A stretch of 64,000 bases of DNA, taken from contig NZ_CP009505.1 in NCBI RefSeq assembly GCF_000970045.1, positions 1,426,001 through 1,490,000 of the forward strand. The letters are read 5' to 3'. Made by a program: the position numbers and the translations under genes. This stretch comes from Methanosarcina sp. MTP4 (lineage in GTDB: Archaea; Halobacteriota; Methanosarcinia; Methanosarcinales; Methanosarcinaceae). The notes beneath the pieces were generated by a model. The model was not told the origin of the DNA. It saw nothing but the letters and a program-made list of their open reading frames with translations, and ran no database searches. Of this stretch, positions 4,048-62,341 are shown piece after piece (position 1 is the first letter of the stretch; each line of letters begins with the position of its first letter).

Positions 4048-4414
4048 TTACTTTAACTTATTCTAAGTAATCTTTCTAATTCTGTTTGCTTTGTTTTCTT
4101 CGTTTTAACAAAATTCAGTTTTAATACTGTTTTCATAACGTTTTTAATATATCATTCAGCTTTTAATATCCCTTTTATATTGTTTCAAAATCTACCTTAC
4201 AATATCAGCCTTCTACCTTACAATATCAGCCTTAAATCTCTGCTCCAAAAATCGACCTTACAATATACTTACAATATATATCTATCACCTCTATCTAACC
4301 CACCTGAATTCCACCTAAATTCCACCTAAATTCCACCTAAATTCCACCTGAATTCCACCTGAATTCCTGCCATCATAAAAGAGGATTCAAAAGAGGATTC
4401 AAAAGAGGACTTCC
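4048..4414. other. Intergenic spacer with two repeat families
   Basis: AT-rich spacer. A roughly 21 bp unit containing taccttacaatatcagcc is repeated imperfectly around 4190-4265. An 11 bp array follows, then a 13 bp direct repeat (aaaagaggattca) that ends by supplying the ribosome-binding AGAGGA of the next gene. No gene is seen. Confidence 0.6.
4301..4366. repeat. 11 bp tandem repeat, 6 units
   Basis: Six units of cacctaaattc or cacctgaattc run head to tail. The only variation is A or G at one position. Confidence 0.9.
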
Positions 4415-12710: not shown

Positions 12711-13083
12711 GGTTTTTCGGCCTCGGGGGGTTGATAAGTGGGGTAGCTTAGATTGATAGGTTGGGCTGCTGGTACGCTGGATTAGCTGGTATGTTGGGTT
12801 TACGAGCTTGTTGGCTGCTATGTTAGATGGACTTAGCAAGCCGATAGGTCGTAGGGATAGTTTGAGAGTAATTCACGAACTGGAATTAATTCTTTAGTAT
12901 AACTTTTAAATTATTTATACCTCTTTGGGAACTCAAAATAATATTAAAAATAATGTGAAGTTAATTATAAATTAGTTACTATGTCCTGGACTACTGTATA
13001 GAAATACTTGATGTTCGGGGGGGTTAAAAAAGAAAAGGAGATGGCTGAAAATGCAGGATACAGGATTTATATTTCAATTTTTT
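12711..13083. other. Intergenic spacer
   Basis: Upstream part of the protease gene region. It holds short repeated phrases (ttggctgctatg-like, 12740-12830) and AT-rich sequence. No additional gene is seen. Confidence 0.5.
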
Positions 13084-13168
13084 AATTTCAATGATTTTTT
13101 AATTTCAATGATTTTTTAATTTCAATGATTTTTTAATTTCAATGATTTTTTAATTTCAATGATTTTTT
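13084..13168. repeat. 17 bp tandem repeat, 5 units, running into panE
   Basis: The unit aatttcaatgatttttt occurs five times. The last two units lie inside the 3' end of the panE frame and supply its final codons and stop. Confidence 0.9.
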
Positions 13169-14821: not shown

Positions 14822-15280
14822 ATGCTCGAAAAATACAGGAAGAAAAGGGATTTCAAAGAGACTCCTGAACCTGCGCCGGGAAATTCAAAAAAAGATCTGG
14901 ATAAACCTATCTTCGTAATCCAGAAACATGATGCCAGTACCCTCCACTATGATTTCCGCCTGGAAATAGACGGGGTCCTGAAAAGCTGGGCAGTCCCTAA
15001 AGAGCCGCCCTCAAAAGCCGGAATAAAAAGGCTGGCCATCCAGACCGAAGACCATCCCCTGGAATACGCTGATTTTGAAGGGGAGATCCCGGAAGGGCAT
15101 TATGGGGCAGGAAAGGTCGAAATCTGGGATAAGGGGACCTTTAAACTCAAGAAATTTGAAGAAAAGGAAATCATTTTCACGCTTGATGGAGAAAAGCTTC
15201 AGGGAGGTTATGTTATGATCAAAACGAAGTTCGGGAAAGAGGGGAAGGGATGGCTGCTATTTAAGAAAAAGGCAGAGTAA
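14822..15280 (+). CDS. Stand-alone LigD 3'-phosphoesterase domain protein
   Basis: 152-residue protein equal to the phosphoesterase (PE) domain of bacterial LigD, here without ligase or polymerase. Typical motifs are FVIQKHDASTLHYDFRLE (His and Asp ligands), LKSWAVPKEPP, AIQTEDHPLEYADFEGEIP and EGHYGAGKVEIWDKG. The domain removes 3'-phosphates and terminal ribonucleotides from DNA ends using Mn. Single-domain versions are known in Methanosarcina and other archaea. It is encoded just after the EncFtn-like gene, with a 180-base gap, so co-regulation is unclear. The usual end-joining partners are not nearby. Confidence 0.92.
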   Translation: MLEKYRKKRDFKETPEPAPGNSKKDLDKPIFVIQKHDASTLHYDFRLEIDGVLKSWAVPKEPPSKAGIKRLAIQTEDHPLEYADFEGEIPEGHYGAGKVEIWDKGTFKLKKFEEKEIIFTLDGEKLQGGYVMIKTKFGKEGKGWLLFKKKAE

Positions 15281-15306
15281 AGGGAGAGTTAGAAAAGTAA
15301 AATATA

Positions 15307-15386
15307 CTTGAATCAACCTTAACTTGAACCAACCTTAACTTGAACCAACCTTAACTTGAACCAACCTTAACTTGAATCAACCTTAA
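15307..15386. repeat. 16 bp tandem repeat, 5 units
   Basis: The unit cttgaaccaaccttaa (or cttgaatcaaccttaa) is repeated five times directly before the STAS-like/PIN gene pair. Confidence 0.9.
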
Positions 15387-15413
15387 CTTCAAGTAATCTG
15401 ATGGGGGATTTAT

Positions 15414-15773
15414 ATGGGGGGAACTATAAAAATCAAGGCAGTTGAGACTGCCGGAGGCAGCTGCTGTATTGCCCTCGGGGACGGGCAAAAGGTTTATGAT
15501 CGAATTGCTGAGGCTTTCCTTGAAAACAGGAAAGTTGAACTTTCTTTTGCGGAGGCAGGAGACCTGACCCCGGCTTTTTTGAACGCTGCGGTTGGGCAGC
15601 TGTACGGAAGTTTTCCGGAAGAGTTTATCAGGCGCAATCTGGTTTTCACGGATATTGGCCCCGGGGATGAAATTATTCTGAGAAGGGTTTCGGAGAGGGC
15701 AAAATGCTATTTTGAGAACGCCGATCATTACAGGAAGGTTGTCAGGGAAGTAATGGGGGGCGAAGATGAGTAA
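15414..15773 (+). CDS. STAS-like (DUF4325-type) protein
   Basis: 119-residue protein with the pattern of STAS-like DUF4325 proteins: an N-terminal strand, GQKVYDRIAEAFLENRKVELSF, then the loop and helix LTPAFLNAAVGQLYGSFPEE, as in antisigma-antagonist folds. It contains a Cys-Cys pair at residues 18-19. The stop overlaps the start of the PIN-domain gene by 8 bases, so translation is probably coupled. The function is unknown. By position it could be the partner or antidote of the PIN nuclease, or a regulator of it; both are inferences. The ATG is followed at once by GGGGGG, so a slightly later non-ATG start cannot be excluded. Confidence 0.7.
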   Translation: MGGTIKIKAVETAGGSCCIALGDGQKVYDRIAEAFLENRKVELSFAEAGDLTPAFLNAAVGQLYGSFPEEFIRRNLVFTDIGPGDEIILRRVSERAKCYFENADHYRKVVREVMGGEDE

Positions 15774-16434
15774 AAAAGCCCATGCTACAAAGGTCCGTCC
15801 CCTGGGAGTTCAGGCTTCGGAAGCTTATTCTTCAGGAACCCACTCCACAGAGGTCCAATCTTTAAAAACCCATTCTGAAGAACTTTCTTTGGCAAAAATC
15901 CGTTCGGCAAAGGTCCATTCCGTAGAGAAATATGATTTTTCGGAAGGCCGACAATTTTTCTTTGATACGAATATCTGGCTCTACATCTACGGGCCCATAA
16001 GTTTCCCTGACTGGCGTTCTGATGTTTATTCCAGGGCTCTGAAAGAGATCCGGGTCTCAGAAGGCAGTATCTACATAAACTGCATGATTATTTCGGAGTT
16101 TGTCAACGCCTTTGCCAGGATCGAGTTCAAGCAGCAGTCGGAATTCGCGAAGTACAAGGAGTTTCGAAACTCTCCTTCCTTCCGGCCTGTCGCCGAAGAT
16201 ATCTCGAACAACGTGAAAAAAATCCTGAAAAATACCCTTACCTGTGACCCTGAACTCGCAGCCGTAAAGCTCCCGGAAATCATGGACACCTTCGAAGAGG
16301 GCAGATATGACTTTAACGACCTGCTTTTTGCAGAGGTTTGCCGCGCAAAAGACCTGATTTTCGTAACCCATGACCGGGATTTCAGGGACCTTGAAATTGA
16401 AATTCTGACCGCAAACGAGAGGATGCTGGGGTGA
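15766..16434 (+). CDS. PIN-domain nuclease with repetitive N-terminal extension
   Basis: 222 residues. The PIN domain begins near residue 62, with the acidic metal-binding residues visible: FFFDTNIWLYI (Asp67), SEFVNAF (Glu111), YDFNDLLFAEV (Asp185) and VTHDRDF (Asp203). Such proteins are Mg-dependent RNases, often toxins of VapBC-type pairs. The first 60 residues are an unusual Ser/His/Lys/Glu-rich segment with a loose 11-residue repeat (SAKVHS, STEVQS, LAKIRS). It is absent from ordinary PIN toxins and may be disordered. The start overlaps the STAS-like gene, with a G-rich ribosome-binding site just before it. The partner is not a classical VapB antitoxin. Confidence 0.8.
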   Translation: MSKKAHATKVRPLGVQASEAYSSGTHSTEVQSLKTHSEELSLAKIRSAKVHSVEKYDFSEGRQFFFDTNIWLYIYGPISFPDWRSDVYSRALKEIRVSEGSIYINCMIISEFVNAFARIEFKQQSEFAKYKEFRNSPSFRPVAEDISNNVKKILKNTLTCDPELAAVKLPEIMDTFEEGRYDFNDLLFAEVCRAKDLIFVTHDRDFRDLEIEILTANERMLG

Positions 16435-22454: not shown

Positions 22455-23106
22455 GATAAAAAACCTGAATATTGTGATTAAGATATTTTTGATTAAGATA
22501 TTTTTGATTAGGATATTTTTGATTAGGATATTTTTGATCAGGATATTTTTGATCAGGATATTACGGTTCGGATATTACGGTTCGGATAGTAAAATAAGAG
22601 AGAATTTTTCGATTGATTCTCCGAGCAATTTTTCGAATAACTCTTTGATTGATTCCCGGGCAATTTTTCGAGTAATTCCCGGCTCCGGTTCTGAAATCTT
22701 AGCAGTAAAAACCCCGAGCCTTTATATATTAGTTGCCATTAACCGGATTTTTTCCGCTTTTCAAGCAGCATGTGCAAGCAATACAAATTTTGTGCTTATG
22801 TTCGTTTATCTATTATGTGCACACATTATATATTCCTATAGTGGCCGGCACAGTATTTATATATTTCTTTGTTTATAGTTTATTGAGAAGCCCCTGCAAG
22901 ATGAAAAGCTATATATCAGTATATTGTTTGTTCTACTTTGCAACCAGGGAACGTACAGATTATTCATGCCAATTGGGCCTTTTTGCTTTGCCGGTCTGCA
23001 TACTGGTTTGTCCGGTTGGCCTGTTCAGCTGGTTTGCACCGGCCCGTTTTATCCGGCAGGTCCGCTCTTATTATTATCCGCATTCACCTCATCCCATGGA
23101 GTAAAA
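22455..23106. other. Intergenic spacer between topA and thiC
   Basis: Holds a 15 bp tandem array, imperfect repeats of cgagcaatttttcgaataa-type phrases at 22620-22680 and TATA-like elements (tttatatatt at 22721, tatttatatattt at 22854). I found no TPP-riboswitch signature before thiC. The open frame through the array is an artefact of the repeat. Confidence 0.6.
22476..22563. repeat. 15 bp tandem repeat, 6 units
   Basis: Units gattaagatattttt, gattaggatattttt and gatcaggatattttt change progressively along the array, as in an ageing minisatellite. It lies just before topA. Confidence 0.9.
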
Positions 23107-31614: not shown

Positions 31615-31693
31615 AGCACAAATTCAAGACTTAAGTAAATCTCTTCTTTCCCTCTTTTCGGGATGCGGAGCTTTCCTTCTCCGCCGTCCTGTA

Positions 31694-31797
31694 TTGCAAC
31701 TTACTTTTTATTGCAACTTACTTTTTATTGCAACTTACTTTTTATTGCAACTTACTTTTTATTGCAACTTACTTTTTATTGCAGCTTATAAGTGCGG
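31694..31797. repeat. 18 bp tandem repeat, 5 full units plus a partial
   Basis: The unit ttgcaacttactttttat is repeated exactly five times at 31694-31783, followed by a decaying copy. A second short duplication (gtaattttgtggattata, twice) follows at 31823-31868. Confidence 0.9.
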
Positions 31798-37472: not shown

Positions 37473-37593
37473 GGTCGTGCGTTTAGAGAATTCCCTGGTC
37501 ACAAAGGATCAGGCGAGCAGTAATCAATAGATCCAGGCAAAATATCTTTATTTTGTTTGAGTTCTATATGTTGAAAATTGTTCGATCAAAACC

Positions 37594-37601
37594 TTTATAT
37601 A
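37594..37601 (+). promoter_or_regulatory. rRNA promoter P2
   Basis: TTTATATA preceded by the purine-rich TFB-contact sequence gatcaaaacc. First of the well-conserved tandem promoters. Confidence 0.75.
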
Positions 37602-37724
37602 TCACAACTGATATTCTGGTATTCCCTGATTCAAATGAATCAGGCGGGCAATAAACTCATAGGTGCTGACAAAAAAATTCTTTTTGTCTGAAATCGATGC
37701 GTTGAAAATTGTTCGATCAAAACC

Positions 37725-37732
37725 TTTATATA
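37725..37732 (+). promoter_or_regulatory. rRNA promoter P3
   Basis: Same TATA context as P2, exactly 131 bases downstream. Confidence 0.75.
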
Positions 37733-37855
37733 TCACAACTGATATTCTGGTATTCCCTGATTCAACTGAATCGGGTGAGCAATAAACCCATGGATGTTGA
37801 CAAAAAGATTCTTTTTGTCTGAAATCTATGCGTTGAAAATTGTTCAATGAAAACC

Positions 37856-37863
37856 TTTATATA
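37856..37863 (+). promoter_or_regulatory. rRNA promoter P4
   Basis: TTTATATA another 131 bases downstream. The sequence after it (aaaaaggatatgtaaggaat) differs from P2/P3 and leads into the pre-16S leader. Confidence 0.7.
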
Positions 37864-37964
37864 TCAAAAAGGATATGTAAGGAATCCCTCACACATCTGA
37901 TGTGTGGTGGAATACAATATCTCTATCATCTTTTAATGGAGACTGAAGCTTTTTTCAGTCTGAC

Positions 37965-48133: not shown

Positions 48134-48360
48134 TTCGACATAGGGAAATCCGGAATGCTTTGATTTTATGCCCGGAATCGCATTTGGCTCTCTCTGAAAT
48201 TACAGCACTCTCACGCGACCGATTTCAGGGGGTGGGAAGGTTTTAGGGAGAGGTAGTTCACATCGGACTAAGTCAAAGCCCGCCTATGCTTGATTTCTAC
48301 TTTTTTCTACCTTTTTTCTACCTTTTTTCTACCTTTTTTCTGTACTATAGTCAAGGACCC
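48134..48360. other. Intergenic spacer with 11 bp repeat
   Basis: The unit taccttttttc is repeated about four times at 48298-48340, just before the dispersed element. No gene is seen. Confidence 0.5.
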
Positions 48361-62176: not shown

Positions 62177-62341
62177 ATAATTGGTAAGAGAATAATTGGT
62201 AAGAGAATAATTGGTAAGAGAATAATTGGTAAGAGAATAATTGGTAAGAGAATAATTGGTAAGAGAATAATTGGTAAGAGAATAATTGGTAAGAGAATAA
62301 TTGGTAAGAGAATAATTGGTAAGGGAATAATTGGTAAGAGA
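62177..62341. repeat. 15 bp tandem repeat, 11 units
   Basis: The unit ataattggtaagaga is repeated eleven times with one substitution (aaggga near 62323). It begins 30 bases after the ccmF1 stop. This is the longest exact array in the window. Confidence 0.95.

Follow-up and report, generated by a model that had tools for sequence, protein, structure and literature searches.

A pair of overlapping genes in the 64,000-nucleotide stretch of DNA analysed here (the window) is probably a kinase-less, two-gene derivative of the VapKSC system, in which the STAS-like protein VapS holds the PIN nuclease VapC, and VapC is released by some route other than phosphorylation by the kinase VapK. The host is an archaeon of the Methanosarcina group with a 4.21-Mb, single-contig genome. 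As a derived form of a known system, the kinase-less, phosphosite-less VapSC of Methanosarcina appears to be new; no description of it was found in the literature searched. The pair and its upstream surroundings comprise:

14822..15280, + strand: stand-alone LigD 3′-phosphoesterase (LigD-PE) domain protein, a syntenic neighbour (PF13298, 144 bits)
15306..15389, no strand assigned: 16-bp minisatellite, 5.2 copies, incidental; upstream of the pair, in the closest relatives only
15414..15773, + strand: putative VapS-like antitoxin, STAS-like DUF4325, 119 aa (PF14213; phmmer to 9z7o_A; dN/dS)
15766..16434, + strand: predicted VapC-like PIN nuclease, 222 aa (PF01850; profile to 9z7o_C; dN/dS)

The start of the VapC reading frame overlaps the stop of VapS by 8 bases, as the original prediction had stated. 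It had also described the upstream partner as a STAS-like, DUF4325-type protein rather than a DNA-binding antitoxin; the protein matches PF14213 (DUF4325) with 59.1 bits (cut-off 23), and Pfam gives DUF4325 only, which bears out both statements. The downstream protein matches PF01850 (PIN) with 37.1 bits (cut-off 23.6). The link to VapKSC was found via a sequence search of the PDB. A profile of the DUF4325 alignment matches chain A of 9z7o ('Escherichia VapS') with E = 2e-24, and the window VapS itself matches this chain by phmmer with E = 1.3e-10. The PIN family profile matches chain C ('Escherichia VapC') with E = 1.3e-12; the window VapC sequence alone gives no match to that chain. PADLOC has no specific model for the kinase, DUF4325 or PIN protein, and literature naming DUF4325 or 'STAS-like' was uninformative.

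VapKSC was described in June 2026 by Chambers et al. in EMBO J (PMC13373217; PDB 9z7o). The genes are in the order VapK (a STAS+GHKL kinase), VapS (DUF4325) and VapC (PIN). The Escherichia VapC is toxic and is neutralized by VapS, to which it is bound 2:2; neutralization is abolished by deletion of VapS residues 94-116 or by S48E. The system is activated by ssDNA/DNA damage through VapK, and it is proposed that VapK frees VapC by phosphorylating Ser48 of VapS; the kinase step was not tested directly for VapK, as the protein was insoluble. Protection against phage requires VapC D28, VapS S48 and VapK F54, S48A abolished protection, and Ser/Thr at VapS position 48 is called absolutely conserved. 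The text of that paper mentions only bacterial groups (all PMC13373217). The homology to Escherichia VapS and VapC supports the earlier suggestion of an unconventional pair in which a STAS-like protein is the antidote for a PIN nuclease, and by analogy we infer that the window genes constitute a toxin-antitoxin pair.

The window pair shares with VapKSC the order of VapS followed by an overlapping VapC, with both proteins detectably homologous, and it keeps the PIN catalytic residues and the C-terminal segment of VapS. It differs in having no VapK gene, in having proline for the Ser/Thr phospho-acceptor, in the additional N-terminal arm of VapC, and in being archaeal and at a fixed chromosomal site that is not beside defence genes. 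In CapKS (regulators of immune operons; PMC13373217) a related STAS protein is likewise the regulated component, but CapS has a wHTH domain and acts as a DNA-binding repressor, whereas the window VapS lacks such a domain and is paired with a nuclease. A STAS-fold antagonist is also found in SpoIIAB/SpoIIAA and RsbW/RsbV; there the output is a sigma factor and not a PIN nuclease, and the cognate GHKL kinase and the phosphorylatable STAS residue of such systems are both lacking in the window pair. Type II VapBC modules resemble it in having a PIN-domain toxin, a small cognate partner and overlapping genes, but their antitoxins are DNA-binding proteins of AbrB, RHH or Phd type.

A genome search bears out the proposed adjacency of the two genes. 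Searched with the PIN protein, 84,980 species genomes yielded 31 loci, and a DUF4325 gene lies directly upstream, overlapping by 8-14 bases, in every locus with enough upstream sequence. The pair is conserved in 30 genomes of the Methanosarcina group. In the genus (including G033 and the M. acetivorans-like G316) both genes are present in 26 of 31 genomes and neither in five, at least one of which is 99% complete; no genome has one gene alone (0/31). In one of the genomes that have lost the pair (G332) the LigD-PE gene remains, and roughly 1.5 kb downstream of it contains no remnant of either partner. All seven strong PIN hits in a sample of 247 Bacteroidota genomes have an adjacent DUF4325 gene (7/7). 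Such conservation of the pair greatly exceeds what chance would produce.

All three genes together are found in many bacteria and other archaea, as well as in one prophage and one plasmid, and a kinase gene lies upstream of DUF4325 in the archaeal genomes G001, G003, G047, G610, G013, G686 and G424; this extends VapKSC to several archaeal families. The kinase is a STAS+GHKL protein of about 290 aa with invariant or nearly invariant GHKL signature residues, and its predicted structure resembles SpoIIAB (Z 12.3), its N-terminal part being similar to TM1442, an anti-sigma-factor antagonist (Z 12.1). The module is mobile, because it is present in the Streptococcus prophage Javan172 (between repressor and integrase) and on plasmid P5 of Deinococcus gobiensis (these being among the few matches from the phage and plasmid searches), and beside type I restriction genes (hsdM) in the close relatives G001 and G003. 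In Javan172 an unannotated PIN gene (L162:4170-4700), with an ImmA/IrrE-like gene on one side and the integrase on the other, completes VapKSC.

There is no VapK gene beside the window pair, and sequence and profile searches found none in the window genome. By profile search VapK is absent genome-wide from 28 of the 30 genomes with VapSC, and in the remaining two (G001 and G003) it is found only in a separate VapKSC. The genome-wide profile search rules out VapK supplied in trans. The kinase-less pairs form a single clade with support of 100/99 in both the VapS and VapC trees, and the hsdM-site VapKSC of G001 and G003 is placed next to this clade (98/93 in the VapS tree; 94/67 in the VapC tree). 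Because many of the deep forks are poorly supported, nothing but the monophyly and the G001/G003 neighbour relation is taken from the trees.

Together with the kinase, its presumed target residue has been lost. The relevant elements of VapS are:

15567-15569, + strand: codon of T52, retained
15570..15572, + strand: codon of Pro53, at the position of the Ser48 phospho-acceptor of Escherichia VapS (phmmer alignment; 29/29 tallies)
15705..15770, + strand: VapS C-terminal segment, residues 98-119, counterpart of Escherichia VapS residues 94-116

Pro53 aligns by phmmer with chain residue Ser66 of 9z7o_A, which should be Ser48 given 18 tag residues (the chain has 134 aa and the protein 116). Among distinct VapS sequences adjoining VapC, the phospho-acceptor position is Ser or Thr in 29/29 with a kinase in the operon and Pro in 29/29 without one, which amounts effectively to one correlated event since kinase loss and the Ser-to-Pro change occur once on the tree; the motif rows of L056 and L181 (TTLFFN) and L180 (SSPFFN) were read by eye. 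The proline codon varies synonymously across the kinase-less sequences (CCT 24, CCG 5), and T52 is invariant in all 29. Of the 28 VapS columns whose residue class is conserved in the kinase-bearing set, four differ in the kinase-less clade (12, 13, 48 and 53); at the first three of these, nearly all kinase-bearing forms have a hydrophobic residue. The joint loss of VapK and of the residue that it should target gives independent support to the proposed phospho-switch. A thirtieth kinase-less VapS, on one MAG contig (L016, i.e. G333:C53), is without the phosphosite helix altogether. At this locus (L016:811-1786) the core STAS helix has been lost in-frame beside an intact VapC, the sole case seen.

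There is a second, smaller case of such a change. The window genome has a solo VapS (L002), without VapC and with Ala at the phosphosite, that sits at the restriction-site (hsdM) locus and is sister to the VapS of G001 and G003. We note that this gene adjoins a type I restriction operon (L167:7653-12380, about 1665652-1670380 of G000:C1), where a CBASS-like pair (oligonucleotide cyclase and 2TM effector) is inserted between hsdM and hsdS. Elsewhere, G318 has a partial duplication (L182:2543-2854), in which a second, truncated kinase-less VapS stands without VapC.

The structural model of the DUF4325 protein gave no Foldseek match at E<=0.001. In a second comparison it resembled SLC26 and anti-anti-sigma STAS domains with Z of 6-7.6, including RsbV (Z 7.1) and SpoIIAA (Z 6.8), scores that are weak to middling; since these are mixed with unrelated aminopeptidases the structural likeness is supportive only. 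9z7o was not among the matches listed in the comparison.

The catalytic center of VapC is intact, with the following positions:

15964..16374, + strand: PIN active-site acid span, invariant in the VapC alignment and in 59 VapC proteins
15964-15966, + strand: codon of D67
16096-16098, + strand: codon of E111
16318-16320, + strand: codon of D185
16372-16374, + strand: codon of D203
15766..15930, + strand: VapC N-terminal arm, residues 1-55, confined to the kinase-less clade

All four acidic residues are thus kept, as was originally noted; together with D182 and D205 they are invariant or nearly so in the alignment of 28 relatives. Of the 26 VapC columns whose residue class is conserved in the kinase-bearing set, the kinase-less clade departs from it at F64 alone (where it mostly has Tyr), and no catalytic column is affected. 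The median dN/dS across the two-gene clade is 0.061 for the VapC core and 0.106 for VapS, and the C-terminal residues 98-117 of VapS are conserved in the alignment with a pooled dN/dS of 0.14. With such low values and intact PIN catalytic residues the pair is hardly a dead remnant.

The arm is more loosely constrained (dN/dS = 0.396). Within the clade there are 64 (window) or 47-48 residues before the FFDTN motif, and in relatives outside it 17-21, so that the window VapC has an excess of about 45 residues over the latter. An extension of 60 residues, repetitive in sequence, had been proposed; the extension is real and a repeat is present, but the added length is shorter and the repeat is weak (three degenerate 28-nt copies with 60-nt spacing, 61-71% identical in the DNA). 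The arm is rich in Arg and Lys in Methanosarcina proper; in the genus of the window it has about 16 more residues and is less basic.

Inheritance of the kinase-less pair is vertical, and throughout Methanosarcina the pair occupies a single fixed place in the chromosome: the LigD-PE gene lies directly upstream in every one of the clade's loci (17/17), as it does in the M. acetivorans-like G316, and a rubrerythrin gene is present at 15 of the 17. The position of LigD-PE makes co-regulation with DNA repair possible. The 16-bp minisatellite is present before the pair as predicted, but a role for it in the system finds no support. Only the closest relatives of the window have related arrays at this place, the other Methanosarcina loci that were read having none, so the array is not part of the system. 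As a regulatory element it was rejected on these grounds, and because of the many similar intergenic arrays in the window. Minisatellites of 11-17 bp occur at 2642-2779, 4300-4367, 13077-13168, 22475-22562, 31692-31788, 48294-48341 and 62177-62341, apparently a general trait of the genome, and a 131-bp tandem repeat (2.7 copies, 85%) lies at 37508-37866. A sigma-70 promoter scan found nothing; its model is not applicable to archaea.

By analogy with the Escherichia proteins, VapS would bind the PIN ribonuclease VapC and keep it inactive, and the C-terminal segment that reaches the VapC active site in the Escherichia homologue would probably do so here. With VapK gone and Ser/Thr replaced by Pro, the sequences indicate that the phosphorylation trigger could not work in the Methanosarcina clade. 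As S48A abolishes protection in Escherichia, proline without a kinase should give a VapC that cannot be released by VapK-type signalling. Phosphorylation therefore seems no longer to control the window pair, and with kinase and phospho-acceptor both gone it must be controlled some other way. Both genes are under purifying selection, so VapC must act in some condition; the simplest route to its release might be that VapS is turned over or diluted out, as antitoxins are in classical type II systems. The new arm may, speculatively, contribute targeting or regulation.

Control might still be exerted by phosphorylation if an unrelated kinase encoded elsewhere acted on another residue, e.g. Thr52, to free VapC. 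Methanosarcina genomes encode many other GHKL kinases, and the invariance of T52 in kinase-less VapS would be in keeping with such a site. But archaeal relatives that do have the kinase carry T52 as well, and in them phosphorylation would be expected at Ser53; T52 is thus not necessarily a newly gained site. Several bacterial VapS have Ile or Ala in place of T52, and the changes at positions 12, 13 and 48 are compatible with loss of a kinase surface. We regard control by another kinase as rather unlikely. A constitutive housekeeping RNase complex, with VapS as a stabilizing subunit or specificity factor rather than a releasing antitoxin, is unlikely too. The absence of a phospho-switch, the very low dN/dS of VapC and the genus-wide fixed site among housekeeping genes (rubrerythrin and LigD-PE, with ProS and S3ae in several) would all suit it. 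Against this, the Escherichia VapS is an inhibitor and not an activator of VapC (PMC13373217), the segment that is inhibitory there is still constrained here, and the pair is missing from five genomes of the genus.

A decaying VapKSC remnant, permanently locked and without function, would account for the VapS on the MAG contig that lacks its core helix, and for the solo VapS relic at the hsdM site of the window genome. The selection analysis largely refutes this, as both genes are constrained and the catalytic residues are intact over the whole genus, and we consider it very improbable. We give slightly less credence still to an ordinary VapBC with an unusual DNA-binding antitoxin. The small partner gene that overlaps the PIN toxin gene from upstream fits that description, but Pfam gives no DNA-binding domain for this STAS-like partner, its structural model resembles anti-anti-sigma STAS proteins (the weak-to-middling RsbV and SpoIIAA matches), and the NCBIfam VapC equivalog score is 13.6 against a cut-off of 80.

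We thus favor a two-gene VapSC in which VapS restrains VapC and the kinase plays no part in release. More tentatively, and with rather less than even confidence, a mobile kinase-switched anti-phage system may have become a chromosomal, kinase-independent RNase module in which the arm of VapC has a new targeting or control function. The Methanosarcina clade is a natural separation of the toxin-antitoxin core from the damage-sensing kinase, and because the pair occurs in genetically tractable Methanosarcina the phosphorylation-free action of a STAS antitoxin can be tested.

DUF4325 is not restricted to the pair: it is also part of single-chain wHTH-ATPase-DUF4325 proteins, and there are kinase/DUF4325 cassettes whose third gene is of another kind. 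In the Bacteroidota sample loci (L074-L090) many DUF4325 domains end single chains of about 350 aa that are HTH-like at the N-terminus and ATPase-like in the middle; these would be a one-protein version of a kinase and STAS regulator. Two of the cassettes (L092:848-2801 and L095:362-2314) combine kinase and DUF4325 with a non-PIN protein of about 170-190 aa that has an apparent transmembrane segment and a coiled coil, and these third genes are possible new outputs of a switch of the VapK/VapS type.
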